A stretch of 64,000 nt of DNA from contig CACVQR010000004.1 in the NCBI GenBank assembly GCA_902756345.1, positions 124,001 to 188,000 on the forward strand. Reading direction: 5' to 3'. The notes below the pieces were generated by a model. The model saw only the letters and a program-made list of their open reading frames with translations, did not search any database and had not been told where the DNA came from. Every line of letters begins with the position of its first letter. Within the stretch, counting starts at the first letter, position 1. Source of the DNA: Fibrobacter succinogenes (GTDB lineage Bacteria > Fibrobacterota > Fibrobacteria > Fibrobacterales > Fibrobacteraceae). Positions 12,624 through 21,424 of the stretch are shown here, piece by piece. Both the position numbers and the translations under genes were made by a program.

Positions 12624-14625
12624 TTATTCAGAGTCCTTGATACAACGGACTGGCAACCGGAACCACATCTTAACATGATTACCAATAAGAACCGCATCAG
12701 AGTTTCTATGAAATCCCACCGTGAACGCAGTGACTCCATTTCCATATTGAGTAGTACTCCAAAATAAAACTTGAGTACTTTCATATTCATACTTCCAATA
12801 ATGCCCTTTGGAGCCACCCCATTGTTCTACGTAACCAGTAGGTAACACAGAAAAACCATAGACATCGGTCCCATTAAGACCATAATGACCATCGGCAGTA
12901 CTACGTCCCCAACCAGTCAAAGATTTTAGCACTTTACCAGCTGTTGAAAGTCCACCCACCGTATTAAACAAAGTTTTCCATTCCGATGTATCAGGTAAAT
13001 GCCAATTATTAGGACAAGCACCCTGAATTTTCGACGGTAGTTTGCACATTGTTCCTTTACATGCATTAAAATCAATAGTTTTTGCCAATGTAACAGAATC
13101 CACAGCAGCAGCCCAATCATAAAGACGTCCTCCAACATCGCAATTTTCATCTATATCATTGAAACACGAAGTCATCTCATCCAAGGGCATTGTCGCCCTA
13201 TCATAATAGTTCAAATTTTCAGCCATCCATATTTGACTACCAATTTTTACAGTTTTATAAACCTTATTGTCACGATTATCAGTCATCACTCCATAATCAA
13301 TTTCTTTATTAAAACGGGCTTCCTTCGTGACATCCCACTCCCACAACATTATATCACGCCATGTTCCCTCATTACAGAAATATGTAAAATAATAAGAAGA
13401 GTCTATAACGGTTTCACCCTCATTTTTCACTGTGCAGGCTTTATTTAATAGTGTTTCTACAGTATTCGCGATTCTAAACTTTCCTGATTCGCAAACATAA
13501 GTCTCTTTCTCCCCTTTTGCAATTTCTCCCTCTATACAGTCAAGGCCTTCTGTATCTTTTTCCCATTCTGTTGCCGTCCGAAACCTTCCAGATTCACACA
13601 TATATTTGTTAGTCGGGTTTACTGCACCAGTAACGATTCGTCCATCAACACATGTTAATCCATAAGTATCATTATAAAATTCAACTTCTTTTTCCGATGC
13701 AACACGAAAAGCTCCTTTTTCGCAAACATATATGTTGCTATCTACAACATTTCCTGTAACCACGCGTCCATCATCAAAGCATTCTAAACCATATGTATCG
13801 TATTCGAGAACTGAAGCTTTTATCCAAGAACCCGACCTGCAAATTACATAGGAAGAATCCTTCTTTCCGATAAATCCTTCCCTACTCGCTTTGCATTCCG
13901 GCAACGCCTTTACCGTGTCCTTCACGCAACTCTTTATTTTGTTGTCGTTCCCGCCGCCGTTCTTGCAGGTGGACTTTGCGGCATTGAATGCCATCTCCAC
14001 GCCCGCTTCGGATTCCATATTATACATAGAATAAGTCTTAGAATCAGTCGAGCCGTCGGCACTCTTGATGGTAACGATAAGGTCCTTGCCGTCCACCGTG
14101 TAGGTGTATTCGGCGTCGTCGCCAAAATCGTCCTTGCGCACAAAGTGCCACGTGCTGACATCGGTCTTGACCATGGCGTCACAGGCTCCCACTTCGGTGC
14201 AGGTCTCGTTCACGGTGATTTCGGGTTCAAGGATTTCCGTGGGGCGCGAGCTGCTGGACTTGGCGGAACTGCTCGATGTCGCCTCTTCCTTGTCGTTGCC
14301 CGAAGAACCTTCCTTGTCGGCAGTCTTGGAGTCGCTGGACCCGTCAGACTTCTTGCTGCTCGACGACTTTGTAGAAGTCGAACTCGGCTTTGTCTGGTCG
14401 TAGGACTTGAACCACTTTTCGCCGTCGCATTCGTAGTTCTCTTCGAGTTCGGTCACATAGACCTTCTCGCCGATGTGTCTCGAGTTCCGTCTTGTCCGTC
14501 ACTTCGGCAGGGAGCCCCGTCCCTTTCGGTGAAGACGAGTCGTCGTCCCCGCAACCGATAAACGCAGAACCGAGCACCCCCGCAAGGGCGCAGACCGTAA
14601 ACTTTTTCGCGAATGTATTTTTCAT
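12624..14625 (-). pseudogene. FISUMP-domain lipoprotein gene with a frameshift near its 5' end
   Basis: The first frame (from ATG 14625) encodes a lipoprotein signal MKNTFAKKFTVCALAG... with lipobox FIGC and runs to ELETH. The rest of the protein continues in a second frame from about IGEKVYVTELEEN. The paralogue at 21540-23888 reads LAELDTYECNDEITGKKIYV here, so about five residues plus one frame have been lost around 14473-14482. Downstream the second frame is open for about 610 codons: a Ser-rich linker, then four degenerate repeats of about 40 residues (GLxCxxGxxxxG...YVCExGxFRxA), and one C-terminal FISUMP domain (DNRDNKVYKTVKIGSQIWMA ... PVRCIKDSE). A sequencing error is possible, but the missing residues make a real deletion more likely. 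It is third in a chain of three closely spaced genes. Confidence 0.8.
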
Positions 14626-14643
14626 AGCGAAACCTTTTGAGAT

Positions 14644-15867
14644 TTAGTCGGAGTCCTTGACGCAACGGACTGAATGGCCATCTTGCTTGGAGAGTTTTCC
14701 CAGGTTCACGTGGCTGTATTTGTAGTGCAAGTACATGTAGTACGCGTAGCCATCGATCTCCGTAGAACTCCAGAAGTACACCGAGTAGCTTTTGCTGTAG
14801 AAGTCGACTCCGGCGCCCATACCGGTGGCCATATGACCGGCAGGCAAAGCGGAAAAACCATAGACGTCTGTACCTTTATCGAAAACGTTATACCAACGCA
14901 TCCACGACTTGAGGACCCTGCCAGCCGTAGAGGAGTCACCCACCGCCGTGATCAGGGCATCCCATTCGCTCAAACTTGGCAGGTGCCAGCCCTTGGGACA
15001 AATACCACGAACAGGATATATCGGCGAGCATTCCTTGCCATAGCCGCATCCCATGCCATTCGTGCTCCACGTGCCAACGCTATCCATGGCCGCAGCCCAG
15101 GTGTAAAGACGGCCACAGGTGTCGCAGTTGGCAGGATCGTTATTATAGCACCAACTGGTGGAATCGAAGGTGAATCCGTAATAGTTATAAGAAATGCCGG
15201 TGTAGGCGTAGTTCAGGTTTTCAGCCATCCAGGTTTGCGAGCCGATGGCGACCGTCTTGTAGACTTGACCATCACGGGAATCGGTAAACTCACCATAGTC
15301 AATTTTCGGATGTAGATAATTCCATACAATTTTCTTTTCTTTACTCGACGAAGACTCCACCTTGCCCGCAGAGCTGCTTGACTTTGCGTCATTTCCAGAT
15401 GTATTCGAATTGCTGGATTTGGTCGACGTTCCTGCCGAAGAAGAGCTATCCTTGCTGTCGCTGGAGTCGTCGGTCACTTCGGCGGGATCGTTGGACTTGC
15501 TATCGCTGGACTTGTCGGTCACTTCGGCGGGATCGTTGGACTTACTATCGCTGGACTTGTCACTCGATGAAGAGAAGTCGCAGTCCATCTTCTCGATGAG
15601 GGTCCCGATGACCCAGCCGTTGTCGCCATCGCAAACAGCCATGTCATGGTATTCCGTCAGGTAGGTGGCAACGCACTTCTGACTCTTGCCGCAGTCGTAG
15701 TCCGACAGTTCCATGAATGTCTCGACGGTGTCAGGAACTCCACCACGATTGCCGCCGCTACCGCCCTCACCACCCGCCGACGAAGAGCCATCGCAGGCGG
15801 TCAGGGCGAAACCAAGCACCCCCGCAAGGGCGCAGACCATAAACTTTTTCGCGAATGTGTTTTTCAT
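14644..15867 (-). CDS. FISUMP-domain cell-surface lipoprotein
   Basis: 407 residues. The lipoprotein signal ends in LTAC (Cys25). It is followed by a conserved module (VETFMELSDYDCGKSQKC ... WVIGTLIEKMDC), a Ser/Asp-rich linker with three in-frame copies of a unit around SDSKSNDPAEVTD, and one FISUMP domain (DSRDGQVYKTVAIGSQTWMA, GRLYTWAAAMDS, GICPKGWHLPSLSEW, DVYGFSALPAGH, HSVRCVKDSD). FISUMP is a Fibrobacter-expanded family of unknown function, possibly C-type-lectin-like and surface exposed. It lies 18 bases upstream of the frameshifted paralogue and 18 bases downstream of the next gene, so the three probably share a transcript. AAAAGG lies about seven bases before the ATG. Confidence 0.88.
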   Translation of the reverse strand: MKNTFAKKFMVCALAGVLGFALTACDGSSSAGGEGGSGGNRGGVPDTVETFMELSDYDCGKSQKCVATYLTEYHDMAVCDGDNGWVIGTLIEKMDCDFSSSSDKSSDSKSNDPAEVTDKSSDSKSNDPAEVTDDSSDSKDSSSSAGTSTKSSNSNTSGNDAKSSSSAGKVESSSSKEKKIVWNYLHPKIDYGEFTDSRDGQVYKTVAIGSQTWMAENLNYAYTGISYNYYGFTFDSTSWCYNNDPANCDTCGRLYTWAAAMDSVGTWSTNGMGCGYGKECSPIYPVRGICPKGWHLPSLSEWDALITAVGDSSTAGRVLKSWMRWYNVFDKGTDVYGFSALPAGHMATGMGAGVDFYSKSYSVYFWSSTEIDGYAYYMYLHYKYSHVNLGKLSKQDGHSVRCVKDSD

Positions 15868-15885
15868 GGGAAAACCTTTTGGAAA

Positions 15886-17025
15886 TTACTCGGAGTCCTT
15901 AACGCAACGGATGGAATAGCCCATGTACATGTAATTGCCTGCTTCGCCCCGGCCCACAACGTTATTGGGGTGCAAGCGCGCGCCATACACAGTATCATCG
16001 AACATGACAGAACTCCAGAAGCACGCCTGCTTGCCGACATCACGGATGTCGCCTTTGAAGTAATAGCCGGCAGGTAGCGCGGCAAAACCGAAGTCATCAT
16101 CACCGTTACCGTCGCTAAGCCACCCGCTCCGGGACTTAAACTTATTCCCTACCGCCGTGGAACCATCGCTCACCGCCGTGAACAGAGTATCCCATTCGCT
16201 TTTTTGCGGCAAGTGCCAGCCACTAGGACAAATTCCTTTGACAATACCATTCAGGGCAGAACACATACTGCCATAACCACAATCTTGCGGATTGACCGCA
16301 TCGGTCGCGAGTTTCACCGAGTCGATGGCCGCCGCCCAAGTATATAGACGGCCGTACTTGGCACAGTTGGCAGGGTCGTTGTCGTAGCACCAGCTAGTAG
16401 AATCGGAGATGTAAACATTATTGTAATAGGAAAAGTTATAGGGAACATCGATGTAGGCATAATTCAGGTTCTGTGCCATCCAAACCTGATCTCCGATTTT
16501 AACCGTCTTATAGACTTGTCCATCACGTTCATCGGTAAACTCTCCATAATCGATGTCCGGATTCAAGTAATCCCAGGCGGTTTTCATTTCTTCGCTAGAC
16601 GAAGACACCTCCTTGCCCGCAGAGCTGCTTGACTTTGCGTCATTTCCAGATGTATTCGAATTGCTGGATTTGGTCGATATTCCTGCCGAAGAAGGGCTAT
16701 CCTTGCTGTCGCTGGACTTGTCACTCGATGAAGAGAAGTCGCAGTCCATCTTCTCGATGAGAGTCCCGATGACCCAGCCGTTGTTACCATCGCACACAGC
16801 CATGTCATGGTATTCCGTCAGATAGGTGGCGACACACTTCTGGCTCTTGCCGCAGTCATAGTCCGACAGTTCCATGAATGTCTCGACGGTGTCAGGAATA
16901 CCCCCACGATTGCCGCCACTACCATTATCACCCCCCGCCGACGAAGAGTCATCGCAGCCCCAAAGGGCGAAGAATGCCGCGAGCACTGCCATCCACAAGA
17001 AACCAAGACCCTTGACACACTTCAT
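15886..17025 (-). CDS. FISUMP-domain cell-surface lipoprotein
   Basis: 379 residues from ATG at 17025. This start is chosen because AGGAG lies eight bases upstream and the signal MKCVKGLGFLWMAVLAAFFALWGC then begins properly; a longer frame to 17103 has no ribosome site. After the lipid-attachment Cys the N-terminal module and Ser-rich linker are almost identical to those of the next gene downstream (14644-15867), while the signal peptide is unrelated. One FISUMP domain follows (DERDGQVYKTVKIGDQVWMA ... YSIRCVKDSE). It is probably first of a three-gene unit. The split between a shared mature part and a different signal suggests recombination among paralogues. Confidence 0.87.
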   Translation of the reverse strand: MKCVKGLGFLWMAVLAAFFALWGCDDSSSAGGDNGSGGNRGGIPDTVETFMELSDYDCGKSQKCVATYLTEYHDMAVCDGNNGWVIGTLIEKMDCDFSSSSDKSSDSKDSPSSAGISTKSSNSNTSGNDAKSSSSAGKEVSSSSEEMKTAWDYLNPDIDYGEFTDERDGQVYKTVKIGDQVWMAQNLNYAYIDVPYNFSYYNNVYISDSTSWCYDNDPANCAKYGRLYTWAAAIDSVKLATDAVNPQDCGYGSMCSALNGIVKGICPSGWHLPQKSEWDTLFTAVSDGSTAVGNKFKSRSGWLSDGNGDDDFGFAALPAGYYFKGDIRDVGKQACFWSSVMFDDTVYGARLHPNNVVGRGEAGNYMYMGYSIRCVKDSE

Positions 17026-17231: not shown

Positions 17232-18572
17232 TTAATAATCTTTTACACAACGGACAGACACTCCATTCGTTTTGTATGTATTTGCACCAATTGAAGCATA
17301 TTTTGAAACGCCACCACCAAAGCACTCTGTAATTGTGTTGACATATTCTTCAGGAAAAGAATAATAACCACCTTTTTTCATATTAACAAATTGTTTTTCC
17401 ATGCTTTTTTCATAATCATATCCTCTATATCCCGCAGCAACAAAACTCATTCCAGACGTATTCAAACCTATACTTACCGAAAAAGATACTTCCGACGCGA
17501 GTGTACTCATGCGGTCTTCAATATAGGTGCTACCTCCTGTAACATACGATGCGGCAAGCATTTCCATCCTTGTAATCAAGTGCCAACCGTTCGGGCAAAT
17601 TCCCTGGTGGAACCCATCATGGTCGGGATCTATCCGGTCGGCACAGCTCTTGCTATTGCACTCATACGGCAGCGCCATCATTTCGGCCCACTGGTAGAGT
17701 CCGCCCCACCAGTCGTTGCAATATTCAACGCTATCGTTATAGCAATACATTTCAACCTTGTCGTCATCGTCCTGTTCATTTGCACCAAGCGTTATCTTTT
17801 CATGGTATTTTAGGTTCTGCGCAAATACGGTAAAAGTGATTTTAGGAACGCTGTCCGGGCCATACTTGTTGGTTATTTCAATGGTCGCATACTTCGTTCC
17901 ATCACGAGTGTCTTCATATTCACCATAACTCAAGTTATAACGTAAAGGACTCGGCAAGGCTTCATAGCCTCGGCTACTGCTGCTATGGGCGATAGAAGAA
18001 CTCGAAGAATTTGGAATATAGCGTTTCCAACCATCCTCATAACAAATATACGCCTTTTTTTCACCATCGGATTCTTCTATATAAACATCGCCATACTTGC
18101 ATGGGGCCGTTATATCAAAACTACTACTAGAACCATCTTTAATACTTGAAGACGAACTCACCGACGAACTAGATACATCCTTCTTGCTGCTAGAAGAATC
18201 TCCCGACTTTATGGAACTGGAGCTTTTGGAGTCAGATGAGTTCTTTGTTTCTTTTGCGGAACTACCTGATACTTCGACAGGCTCAGATCCCTTGACACTA
18301 CTGGAAGACTTGTCTTTTTCCATATTTTCGTCACTAGACCCATTCAACTCCGCTGACGCTCCGCTCAGGGTGACACTCGAATCTGGCGACTCTACAGACG
18401 AACTGGGAACACCTGTTTCGTCGGAACTAGCTGATGACGAATCGTCACAGGCGGTCAGGACAAACCCAAGGCAAAGTGCCGTCAGGAAGGATCCTATCGC
18501 CGCTGATTCTATCGGGGCTCTGCCCCTCCAGAATGACAGGCTCCAGGATGACAGTAAAAAAGACTTCTTCAT
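17232..18572 (-). CDS. Divergent FISUMP-domain lipoprotein with a repeat-derived signal peptide extension
   Basis: 446 residues. The lipobox is LTAC at about residue 42, unusually far from the start because SSWSLSFWRGRAPIESAAIG is inserted between the basic n-region and the hydrophobic core. That insert is translated from a dispersed-type DNA repeat (18501-18553). A long Ser-rich linker follows, then a PCKYGDVYIEESDGEKKAYICYEDGWKRY module, then a diverged FISUMP domain (EDTRDGTKYATIEI, GICPNGWHLITRMEM, VSVRCVKDY). AAGGA lies eight bases before the ATG. It is separated from the three-gene FISUMP unit by about 200 bases and from the divergent TIGR02147 gene by 240 bases. Confidence 0.82.
   Translation of the reverse strand: MKKSFLLSSWSLSFWRGRAPIESAAIGSFLTALCLGFVLTACDDSSSASSDETGVPSSSVESPDSSVTLSGASAELNGSSDENMEKDKSSSSVKGSEPVEVSGSSAKETKNSSDSKSSSSIKSGDSSSSKKDVSSSSVSSSSSIKDGSSSSFDITAPCKYGDVYIEESDGEKKAYICYEDGWKRYIPNSSSSSIAHSSSSRGYEALPSPLRYNLSYGEYEDTRDGTKYATIEITNKYGPDSVPKITFTVFAQNLKYHEKITLGANEQDDDDKVEMYCYNDSVEYCNDWWGGLYQWAEMMALPYECNSKSCADRIDPDHDGFHQGICPNGWHLITRMEMLAASYVTGGSTYIEDRMSTLASEVSFSVSIGLNTSGMSFVAAGYRGYDYEKSMEKQFVNMKKGGYYSFPEEYVNTITECFGGGVSKYASIGANTYKTNGVSVRCVKDY
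18501..18553. repeat. Dispersed-type repeat inside the signal-peptide coding region
   Basis: On the minus strand the block contains CTGTCATCCTGGAG, CTGTCATTCTGGAGGGGCAG and AGCCCCGATAGAATC: two tandem TGTCATyCTGGAG units with a GGGGC-AGA-GCCCC hairpin. This resembles the TGTCATCC...GGGG repeats scattered through many genomes. A related stretch with CCCCAG...CCGGGGATGACA lies at about 52593-52616. Confidence 0.65.
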
Positions 18573-18685: not shown

Positions 18686-18712
18686 CTATATGACTCAGTA
18701 TGAGACATATAG
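18686..18712. promoter_or_regulatory. 27-bp interrupted palindrome upstream of the TIGR02147-FISUMP operon
   Basis: Perfect two-part arms: CTATATG and CTCA on the left, TGAG and CATATAG on the right, separated by single unmatched bases and a 3-base centre (GTA). It lies about 100 bases before the TIGR02147 start codon and 114 bases before the divergent FISUMP gene. The size and symmetry fit an operator for a dimeric regulator; the TIGR02147 protein is an obvious candidate, by inference only. Confidence 0.5.
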
Positions 18713-18812
18713 GAGATTCTTCAAGATTCCCATGACAGGAACGGCAATCCAGGGGCCTATCCGGTTCAAGAAATTGCAAACCCGGGAACAATAAGGTAAA
18801 TTTGAAAAGCCC

Positions 18813-19631
18813 ATGAAACCGATATCCGACTACAACGACTACCGCCCTTTTATCAGGGATTTCTACGAAGAACATAAGTTGATGACGGGTCTGTCGTGGC
18901 GCGGCTTCAACAAGATGGCCGGATACGCCAGCACAAAGTTCTTGAAACTCGTTTGCGACGGGAAGTCGAAATTGAGCTGCGTCGGCGCCGCCCGCCTGTC
19001 AAAAGTCATGGGCCTTTCCAAGATCCAGACATCCTACTTCTTGGCGCTGGTCACCTACTGCAATTCCCCCGTAGAAAAGAAAAGGCAGGCCGCCCTTGAA
19101 CAGATGCACACCCTGGCAAAGGACGACAGGGTCAGGGTCGTAGGGGGCGACGGCTACGAATACTTCAAGAACTGGTGGAACCCGGTGCTCCGGGAACTTG
19201 CCCCCAGGATTGCCAATGCCACGCCGTCAAAAATCGCGAACATGCTCCACGAAAACGTAACTCCCGAGAACGTGAAGAAATCCCTGGATTTCCTGGTCCA
19301 GGCGGGGTTTCTGAAGGAGCGGCGCAACAGGTATGTCCAATCCGACAAGGCAATCCTTGGCTCGTCCGAGAAGATTCCGCGGGCAATCCGCGGCATGCAC
19401 AGGCAGATGGCAAGGCTTGCGGAGAAGGCCGTCGAGGCATTCCCCGTAACGGAGCGCAACTTTTCGGGAATGACGGTCGCCGTAAACCGGGCGGCGTACG
19501 CGCAGATCGTAAGCGAACTGGATTTCTGCCGCAAGAAGATAGCCGCAATCGTTTCTGCCGCAGAGGACTGCGACAGGGTTTACAGGGTGAACCTGCAGTT
19601 GTTCCCGCTGACCAAAGAGATAAAAAAATGA
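18813..19631 (+). CDS. TIGR02147-family (DUF4423) putative regulator
   Basis: 272 residues. The pattern matches the second large Fibrobacter paralogous family: DYRPFIRDFYEEHK at the start, a helix-turn-helix-like stretch (LSWRGFNKMAGYASTKFLKLV), the YFLALVTYCNSP segment, a second predicted winged-helix part (VTPENVKKSLDFLVQAGFLK) and a late FSGMTVAVN motif. No signal peptide or membrane segment is seen, so it should be cytoplasmic. Members are usually regarded as possible transcription regulators; function is not established. Its TGA overlaps the ATG of the next gene (ATGA), which encodes a secreted double-FISUMP lipoprotein, so both are made from one message. Confidence 0.8.
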   Translation: MKPISDYNDYRPFIRDFYEEHKLMTGLSWRGFNKMAGYASTKFLKLVCDGKSKLSCVGAARLSKVMGLSKIQTSYFLALVTYCNSPVEKKRQAALEQMHTLAKDDRVRVVGGDGYEYFKNWWNPVLRELAPRIANATPSKIANMLHENVTPENVKKSLDFLVQAGFLKERRNRYVQSDKAILGSSEKIPRAIRGMHRQMARLAEKAVEAFPVTERNFSGMTVAVNRAAYAQIVSELDFCRKKIAAIVSAAEDCDRVYRVNLQLFPLTKEIKK

Positions 19632-21424
19632 GATTTTCCCCGAACATTCTATCCATCCCCTGCCTTGCGTTCCTGTTCTGCACCGCCTGCAGCGATTCGG
19701 AAAAGGAAATCGCCAACGGCTACACCGAAGAGCAGAACGCCAGCCTGGACAGCGCAGCCTATGCAAGGCTCATGACATGGGAACCCAAGGTCGCCCTGAG
19801 GCTCGTGGAAGTTAAGGACAAGGAACGGGGCTTGTCGTGGTTCGATGTCGATTTTACCACAGCCGCCAAGCCCTACTACGAGCATGCGGGCGGGACCGTT
19901 GACGACGGTTGCACCGTGAACCTGTATGCCGAACAGAACGGTGTCCGCATGAACTTGACTCGCACCTACAAGAAGAACATCTATACGGAATTTTTGAACC
20001 GCGACTCCCTGGATGCCATGGTGGAAGACCACCTGGACAATTCTTACGGCGACAGTGCCACAGCAAGTTGCCGGGCGGATTCTACGGCCTTCGCAGACTA
20101 CTGTGCCGAAAACGGCGGGGCCGTGACGGACCTTTTCAAACTGGACCGTTGCAGCGTGCTTCACTTGACATGCGTCATGAAGTTCACGCCGAAAGTTGCC
20201 GCCGATGAATACTTGCAGGCTACGGCCAAGAGAATGAAGGATATCTGCATTGCCGAGTTCTACGCCCCGGGAGAAGACGCTGAAGCCGATTCCACGCTCC
20301 TTGTGGACAAGCGGGACGGTCAAGTGTACAGGACGGTAAAAATCGGCGAACAGGTGTGGATGGCGGAGAACCTGAACTACGCCTATCGGGCTTCTTCGGA
20401 AACCATGGATTCCCTCAGTTACTGCCCGGAAGGAAATCCCGCCAACTGCGAAAAATACGGGCGGCTCTATACATGGGCCGCGGCAGTGGGCTGTACCGAA
20501 AAGCCCTGCGATATCGGGAGCAATGTCCAGGGGATATGCCCAGAGGGCTGGCGCGTGCCGAACCTTGACGACTTCGAGATTCTCGAAGAAGAAATGGGCG
20601 GGCGCGACGTCGCCGGGAAAAAGGCGGCGGCAGAAGAGTTCATGGGAACGGACGATTACGGGTTTACGGCACTGTTCCCGGGTTATTCCGTTCTGCCGCC
20701 CGAAACGGAAAGGCAGGAAAAGTATTACGGCTACGGGGCATTCTTTATCATGGCTTCGACGAACATGGGAATCCCGCAGCATTGGAGACTCCTTTTCGGC
20801 GATACCAGCTCGAATGTCGAATTGGCTTCGTCATACGCATTCGAATCGCTCCGCTGCATAAAGGGCGCGGCGACGGATATTCCCTGGGACGCCGTGGACC
20901 CAGCTCAGGTTGTCGCCGGGACCTTCACGGACGAGCGCGACGGGCGGACTTACGCCACCACGACGATAGGCTCGCAGACCTGGCTGGCCGAGAACCTGAA
21001 ATACAAGGGGGATTTCACGAGTTACTGCTACGAAAACGACGACGAGAACTGCGAAAAATACGGCAGGATGTATTCTCCCGACGACGCCAAGACGGCCTGC
21101 CCGGAGGGTTGGCGGCTGCCGTCCGCCCAGGACTTTGTAGACCTGGAGAACAACACGGGGAACGACATGACCGCTCTCAGGACGACCGAAGGCTGGGAAA
21201 GCGGAAACGGAAGCGATCTTTACGGATTCAGCCTTTACCCGGCAGGACGCTACAGCATCATCGGGAACACCCTGAAATTCGTGTCAATGGGAGTGGCGGC
21301 CTACCTATGGACGGACACGGAAAGCGAATTCGGGACGCTCGTTTTTGACGGACTCAATGTCGGTTACCCGGCAACGTCCATGACATCGGGCAACTACCTG
21401 AATGTCCGATGCCTAAAGGATTGA
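19628..21424 (+). CDS. Double-FISUMP-domain lipoprotein coupled to the TIGR02147 gene
   Basis: 598 residues from the ATG at 19628 inside the ATGA overlap; a longer open frame upstream is only the shadow of the regulator gene. The signal MRFSPNILSIPCLAFLFCTAC gives the lipid-attachment Cys. Residues of about 30-215 form a unique N-terminal region with a Cys-containing segment (CSVLHLTCVMKF). Two FISUMP domains follow: about 224-415 (KRDGQVYRTVKIGEQVWMAE, GRLYTWAAAVG, GICPEGWRVPNLDDFE) and 431-598 (ERDGRTYATTTIGSQTWLAE, CPEGWRLPSAQDFVDLE, LNVRCLKD). Codon use is GC-rich compared with the FISUMP genes at 12624, 17232 and 21540. Confidence 0.85.
   Translation: MRFSPNILSIPCLAFLFCTACSDSEKEIANGYTEEQNASLDSAAYARLMTWEPKVALRLVEVKDKERGLSWFDVDFTTAAKPYYEHAGGTVDDGCTVNLYAEQNGVRMNLTRTYKKNIYTEFLNRDSLDAMVEDHLDNSYGDSATASCRADSTAFADYCAENGGAVTDLFKLDRCSVLHLTCVMKFTPKVAADEYLQATAKRMKDICIAEFYAPGEDAEADSTLLVDKRDGQVYRTVKIGEQVWMAENLNYAYRASSETMDSLSYCPEGNPANCEKYGRLYTWAAAVGCTEKPCDIGSNVQGICPEGWRVPNLDDFEILEEEMGGRDVAGKKAAAEEFMGTDDYGFTALFPGYSVLPPETERQEKYYGYGAFFIMASTNMGIPQHWRLLFGDTSSNVELASSYAFESLRCIKGAATDIPWDAVDPAQVVAGTFTDERDGRTYATTTIGSQTWLAENLKYKGDFTSYCYENDDENCEKYGRMYSPDDAKTACPEGWRLPSAQDFVDLENNTGNDMTALRTTEGWESGNGSDLYGFSLYPAGRYSIIGNTLKFVSMGVAAYLWTDTESEFGTLVFDGLNVGYPATSMTSGNYLNVRCLKD

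Follow-up and report, generated by a model that had tools for sequence, protein, structure and literature searches.

The window analysed here, a stretch of 64,000 nucleotides from Fibrobacter succinogenes, contains a TIGR02147 gene that overlaps a gene for a FISUMP lipoprotein, with a palindrome upstream, and this arrangement raises the question of whether the TIGR02147 protein controls the expression of its neighbour. The corresponding family entries (NCBIfam TIGR02147, Fsuc_second; Pfam PF14394, DUF4423) come without a function, and the window protein is a full-length member. The initial annotation had proposed a TIGR02147 regulator that uses the palindrome to control the lipoprotein genes next to it. 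Comparative support for this core idea is strong, but the nature of the partner, the palindrome and the self-regulation all had to be corrected; the idea is strengthened because TIGR02147 genes do show a neighbour preference, and because the palindrome does not occur only at this locus. From comparative sequence analysis, I put the probability that the TIGR02147 protein is a dedicated regulator that binds DNA and acts via these dyads at roughly 0.8.

The TIGR02147-FISUMP gene pair

The features of the pair and of its upstream region are the following:

18686-18712, unstranded: dyad and putative operator, CTATATGACTCA-GTA-TGAGACATATAG (27 bp; half-site GAGACAT / GAGTCAT), conserved in orthologs
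18774-18802, + strand: predicted promoter, TTGCAA-N17-TAAATT(TG)
18813-19631, + strand: TIGR02147/DUF4423 gene (272 aa), with an N-terminal lambda-repressor-type HTH predicted by modelling; proposed regulator
19628-21424, + strand: partner lipoprotein gene (598 aa), with two TIGR02145/FISUMP stretches

As initially annotated, the two genes form a coupled pair, and the sequence and its open reading frames place the stop codon of the TIGR02147 gene and the start codon of the double-FISUMP lipoprotein gene within a single ATGA. Profile matches for both products are above the cut-offs: the first matches TIGR02147 over the full length of the profile with 248.8 bits (cut-off 50) and DUF4423 with 98.2 bits (cut-off 30), and the second matches TIGR02145/FISUMP with 277 bits (cut-off 41.65), in two stretches. 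The genome from which the window originates (3.36 Mb) contains 29 TIGR02147 genes and 114 FISUMP domain matches.

The predicted promoter was read from the sequence; it is kept in orthologs, and the paralogs show the same geometry. Its predicted -10 element lies 10 bp before the ATG, and a near-leaderless mRNA is therefore expected. Across the genus, a TATATT/TAnnTTT element begins between -20 and -10 of the ATG in 44/61 TIGR02147 clusters, compared with 35/239 other genes, a position which suggests that the mRNAs of TIGR02147 genes may be near-leaderless.

The partner lipoprotein possesses a signal peptide and, by a simple in-house lipobox rule, the lipobox LFCTAC with Cys21. The -3 residue of this lipobox is a non-canonical Cys, and orthologs have LAAC, FAAC or YAGC. 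The second FISUMP domain gave a good model (pLDDT 92), and almost all of its PDB matches are C-type-lectin-like, with weak E-values (0.06 and up); such a predicted fold makes a ligand-binding role at the surface plausible. In the cell envelope of F. succinogenes S85, one FISUMP protein was detected on microcrystalline/acid-swollen cellulose, and not on glucose (PMC4619616). No regulator is linked to the TIGR02145/FISUMP surface proteins in the papers found.

TIGR02147 genes are paired with lipoprotein genes

Pairing was scored as a lipobox ORF starting between -60 and +150 of the TIGR02147 stop codon, and the remaining negatives were read by eye (four genus and two distant cases). This direct test was used because some lipoproteins, owing to wrong starts, escaped when the next gene was called automatically. 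The set comprised 236 distinct genes, drawn from the genus and from the phylum's other families; three of the genus genes run off their contig.

In the window's own genome, a lipoprotein gene lies downstream of 28/29 TIGR02147 genes, and at the single exception (L009) the divergent neighbour is a lipoprotein gene. Among all genes of the same loci, 41/253 have a downstream lipobox ORF, a proportion of ~6% when the TIGR02147 genes are left out. The neighbour preference that the initial annotation had asked about is therefore present, as across the genus a lipoprotein gene adjoins every one of the 203 testable TIGR02147 genes (downstream in 200, divergently in 3), versus ~6% of other genes. The genus exceptions L136 and L186 have a divergent lipoprotein gene, and the dyad TATATGATTCA-NNN-TGAATCATATA is located in the common intergenic region. 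In the other families of the phylum, 28/30 TIGR02147 genes have a downstream lipoprotein gene. The partner had been expected to be a FISUMP or other lipoprotein; the lipoprotein is indeed the constant element, but FISUMP is usually absent, most partners in the own genome being non-FISUMP lipoproteins.

The gap between the TIGR02147 gene and the lipoprotein gene is mostly -4, -8, -14 or +1. Many partner lipoproteins, across families of the phylum, also share a signature following the Cys, approximately (V/T)AGxxxExxN, of which the window partner has the version IANGYTEEQN. With a profile of this signature, trained solely on partners from the other phylum families, genus partners can be told from other lipoproteins to a moderate degree only (AUC 0.85). 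It is possibly a sorting or interaction signal.

The window dyad is conserved in orthologs

The two-part palindrome that had been annotated 100 bases upstream was confirmed at 18686-18712: 11/12 of its arm positions pair, and it ends 100 bp upstream of the TIGR02147 ATG, the dyad position being -126. In orthologs with 74-98% protein identity, the dyad core is invariant (consensus CTATATGnCTCAnnnTGnGACATATrg) and the upstream flanks have diverged. Because it is kept in relatives while its flanks diverge, the dyad is beyond what chance would leave. When up to 3 mismatches are allowed, the pattern occurs at 2 places in the whole own genome (0 in the reversed control), and the sole other close copy (C26:3451) lies 5' of a FISUMP lipoprotein remnant. 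A comparison of the dyad with plasmids gave no match.

The dyad is also located ~115 bp from the start codon of a divergent FISUMP gene (17232-18572, - strand). The self-regulation originally proposed would concern the regulator's own operon; the dyad is however bidirectional and common to other FISUMP operons, and more than self-regulation would therefore be involved.

Paralogs possess private candidate operators

Upstream of the paralogs, dyads are found with the same architecture, ATGNNNC-N4/5-GNNNCAT, and with paralog-specific letters (ATGATAC/GTATCAT, ATGAAAC/GTTTCAT, ATGCAAC/GTTGCAT, ATAGTAC/GTACTAT and ATGATTC/GAATCAT). The palindrome is thus not restricted to this locus, but what recurs is a family of paralog-specific dyads, not one sequence. 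Exact AT[GAT]NNNC-N4/5 dyads are present in 22/164 TIGR02147 upstream regions, where dinucleotide shuffles give an expectation of 0.04; 18 of these start at -132 to -135, and 4 at -113 to -117.

A third copy of the half-site, in direct orientation, is found at -51 to -48, abutting the -35 element. Beside the -35, a gene's own half-site matches at 6-7 of 7 positions in 37/48 genes, versus 8.1% with half-sites swapped between paralogs. The geometry is regular in a larger set: the distance from the right arm to the third half-site is 70-73 bp in 56/57 cases, and the latter ends 6-8 bp before the TTG, again in 56/57; 17 bp separate the -35 and -10 elements in 40/46, and the start of TATAT falls at -13 or -14 in 44/46. 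At the level of clusters, 14/19 of those with operator calls have the cognate site beside their own -35, and none was found for the window gene. Independent word tests found a 7-mer present at least 3 times in 18/61 clusters (3.4 expected), and a same-orientation 7-mer common to the -58 to -38 and -150 to -100 regions in 20/61 clusters (4.3 expected from cross-pairing).

A dyad was called in only 19/61 genus clusters, and the L001 and L002 subfamilies possess other repeated upstream words (GTGTGGAC and GTGTTCCC). The L002-type promoters L068, L075, L077 and L080 carry several GTGTTCYC/GTGTTCCC direct repeats, likely a different type of operator. Upstream inverted repeats such as those of L002 and L006 are transcription terminators, and were not counted as operators. 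The generic pattern TATGNNNCN{4,5}GNNNCATA showed no enrichment across the own genome (3 sites, 7 in the reversed control) and, not being above the control, was dropped as genome-wide evidence. The same generic search returned a parS-like sequence, TGTTTCACGTGGAACA, at L334 ~1501 (G000:C25:5399).

Compared to these paralogs, the window dyad at -126 is roughly one helical turn off each of the two position classes. No third half-site was found at the window TIGR02147 promoter, and its logic may therefore differ from that of the paralogs.

A predicted lambda-repressor-type domain covaries with the half-sites

In the AlphaFold2 model of the TIGR02147 protein, a five-helix domain at the N-terminus is predicted with confidence (pLDDT 81-95), and the C-terminal half is of low confidence. 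The best PDB matches of the N-domain in Foldseek are the lambda repressor NTD (1lli, 1lmb, 1rio), HigA antitoxins and restriction-modification controller proteins, with a probability of ~0.99 but weak E-values (0.07 and up; ~0.07-0.1 for 1lmb and 1rio). The protein encoded at 18813-19631 matched no Pfam HTH family above cut-off, a PDB sequence search gave no convincing relative of TIGR02147 or FISUMP, and no relatives were found in viral contigs. As modelled, the N-domain looks like a lambda-repressor-type HTH, with the following element:

18897-18956, + strand: predicted helix 2 and recognition helix, codons 29-48 (YASTKFLKLV region), with T41 and L46 as proposed specificity residues

Covariation between protein and half-site was computed for 44 genes, thinned at 90% identity, with the effect of overall protein distance removed. 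Residue 41 is associated with half-site base 3 and residue 46 with base 4, each being the top-ranked among 211 columns for either arm, and 0/2000 label permutations reach the observed value. For residue 41, the correspondence is P41 with A (27/30), S41 with T (11/12) and T41 with G (2/2); for residue 46, it is V46 with G (11/14), L46 with T (19/23) and M/D/T46 with C (7/7). In the 434/lambda group, specificity is classically determined by recognition-helix positions 1 and 6.

Relation to known systems

The dyads of the TIGR02147 genes, together with the half-site beside the -35, form an arrangement that I take to resemble self-activating promoters, such as lambda cI PRM and those of the restriction-modification controller (C) proteins, to which the modelled N-domain also shows a likeness of fold in Foldseek. 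However, TIGR02147 proteins possess a C-terminal DUF4423 region, not the dimer/protease domain of cI, and differ from both cI and the C proteins in being linked to lipoproteins and in occurring as ~30 paralogs per cell with differing half-sites.

Individual regulators next to operons for surface proteins are already known. ElrR from Enterococcus faecalis, a positive regulator of the surface-protein operon elr (PMC4522977), is a weak structural match to the TIGR02147 N-domain in Foldseek. The literature search found no description of a lipoprotein family pairing or a phylum-wide expansion for ElrR. For ospC of Borrelia, an inverted repeat located upstream of the promoter is reported to control this outer-surface lipoprotein (PMC3700930). 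Borrelia belongs to a different phylum from Fibrobacter. I know of no paralog-specific operators, and of no regulator-lipoprotein operon, for ospC.

Within the open-licence literature, TIGR02147 is named in no paper found (absence there is not proof), a DUF4423 protein is named only in a Bdellovibrio table, and the TIGR02147-lipoprotein pairing was not found described. Pairs of regulator and lipoprotein that form a family across a phylum, each with operators of its own, are apparently undescribed, and the window gene pair would be one example of this cell-surface control system. What is added here to the TIGR02147/DUF4423 entries is the lipoprotein pairing, the candidate operators and a predicted HTH role, and thereby a proposed function, open to testing, for a paralog family that is uncharacterised and numbers ~30 genes in each Fibrobacter genome. 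The proposal links this family to abundant surface lipoproteins of a major plant-fibre-degrading gut bacterium. The family would also offer naturally occurring repressor-type paralogs together with their matching operators and two nominated specificity residues, usable to study how regulators diverge without crosstalk.

A probable FISUMP regulon for the window regulator

On the other side of the window dyad, four FISUMP lipoprotein genes are found on the opposite strand:

17232-18572, - strand: divergent FISUMP lipoprotein gene, with the dyad in common; proposed second target
15886-17025, - strand: FISUMP lipoprotein gene, first of three beyond 17232-18572
14644-15867, - strand: FISUMP lipoprotein gene, second of three
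12624-14625, - strand: FISUMP lipoprotein gene, third of three; frameshifted

The internal gaps of the 12624-17025 run are 18 bp, and because 206 bp separate it from 17232-18572, its co-transcription with that gene is uncertain. The frameshift is located near 14473, where relatives are ~20 bp longer; decay, variation or an assembly error could account for it.

Copies of the window-type dyad precede FISUMP lipoprotein or TIGR02147 genes in 8 genomes. In G020, G061, G033, G035, G010 and G007 they precede FISUMP lipoprotein operons, usually with 113-130 bp from dyad centre to start codon. Some of these copies were duplicated with their promoter, and they are therefore not all independent; those at L329:3269, L330 and L331 lie in diverged surroundings. 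As near-identical dyads precede further FISUMP operons in relatives, the window regulator probably has a small FISUMP regulon. A pattern for other subfamilies, ATGMWACN{4,5}GTWKCAT, was found at 20 places in 9 genomes, versus 2 in the reversed control. The 16 loci that were read consist of 13 TIGR02147 promoters, 2 promoters of lone lipoprotein genes, in which the site is 116-117 bp upstream, and 1 site within a gene.

At L329 3269, the dyad that precedes a FISUMP lipoprotein gene is TATATGTAACACTCTGTTACATATA (half-site GTTACAT), which a TIGR02147 paralog would read. In relatives, ATPase-like genes (GRRRVGKTYL / GRRRLGKSTL) are neighbours of some FISUMP operons and dyads, at the following loci:

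L325, 5386-6825 and 16783-18213: ATPase-like genes
L327, 3954-5393: ATPase-like gene
L328, 5615-6979 and 8482-9912: ATPase-like genes

A proposed mechanism and its alternatives

I propose that TIGR02147 proteins control transcription as sequence-specific one-component regulators, with an N-terminal HTH of the lambda-cI type, and that each is dedicated to the adjacent surface lipoprotein gene; that they bind DNA is inferred from the sequence comparisons above. In the best-studied subfamilies, a dimer would bind the private dyad ATGNNNC-N5-GNNNCAT, ~124 bp ahead of the start codon, and the third half-site would be occupied ~71 bp (seven helical turns) downstream, the DNA between the two probably being looped. 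Since the third half-site abuts the -35, protein bound there could contact RNA polymerase. The protein would then drive the coupled pair, its own gene as well as the lipoprotein gene whose translation is linked to it, in a positive feedback, with an inducing signal presumably sensed by the DUF4423 part. The window pair would be a two-way version, the dyad lying between the regulator's own operon and the divergent FISUMP gene, and dyad copies would bring further FISUMP lipoprotein operons under the control of this regulator. Activation is somewhat favoured over repression, because the sites are upstream of the core promoter or abut it, and do not cover it. As a tentative extension, which I hold to be less likely than not, each cell could possess 20-40 orthogonal, self-activating, bistable cI-like switches, each with its own lipoprotein set, leading to heritable clonal differences in the coat.

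The most serious alternative, which I consider less likely, is that TIGR02147 proteins are autorepressors, the bound dyad and the -35-proximal half-site blocking or looping out the promoter until DUF4423 receives its signal. Repressors are found among the nearest folds, namely lambda cI and HigA, and the third half-site at -51 is near the -35; however, the dyad lies 70 bp ahead of the core promoter, the half-site stops short of the TTG and does not extend over the -35/-10, and the FISUMP target promoters have only the far upstream dyad.

Activation by a dedicated regulator also has to be weighed against the very improbable case that the two genes are co-inherited for post-transcriptional reasons (coupled translation, or lipoprotein export and assembly), with another factor using the dyads. 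This would be in line with the tight translational coupling implied by the short gaps, and with the post-Cys signature shared by the partners, but not with partners that are sometimes divergent, with dyads that precede lipoprotein genes lacking an adjoining TIGR02147 gene, or with the covariation of helix and operator. Slightly less probable still is that the dyad serves the recombination or duplication of FISUMP cassettes, and is no operator: copies do border duplicated FISUMP promoter segments on their outer side, and contigs of G020 and G061 have several of them, but the half-site letters are paralog-specific and covary with the recognition helix, the third half-site keeps a fixed spacing to the -35, and dyads also precede TIGR02147 genes far from FISUMP arrays.
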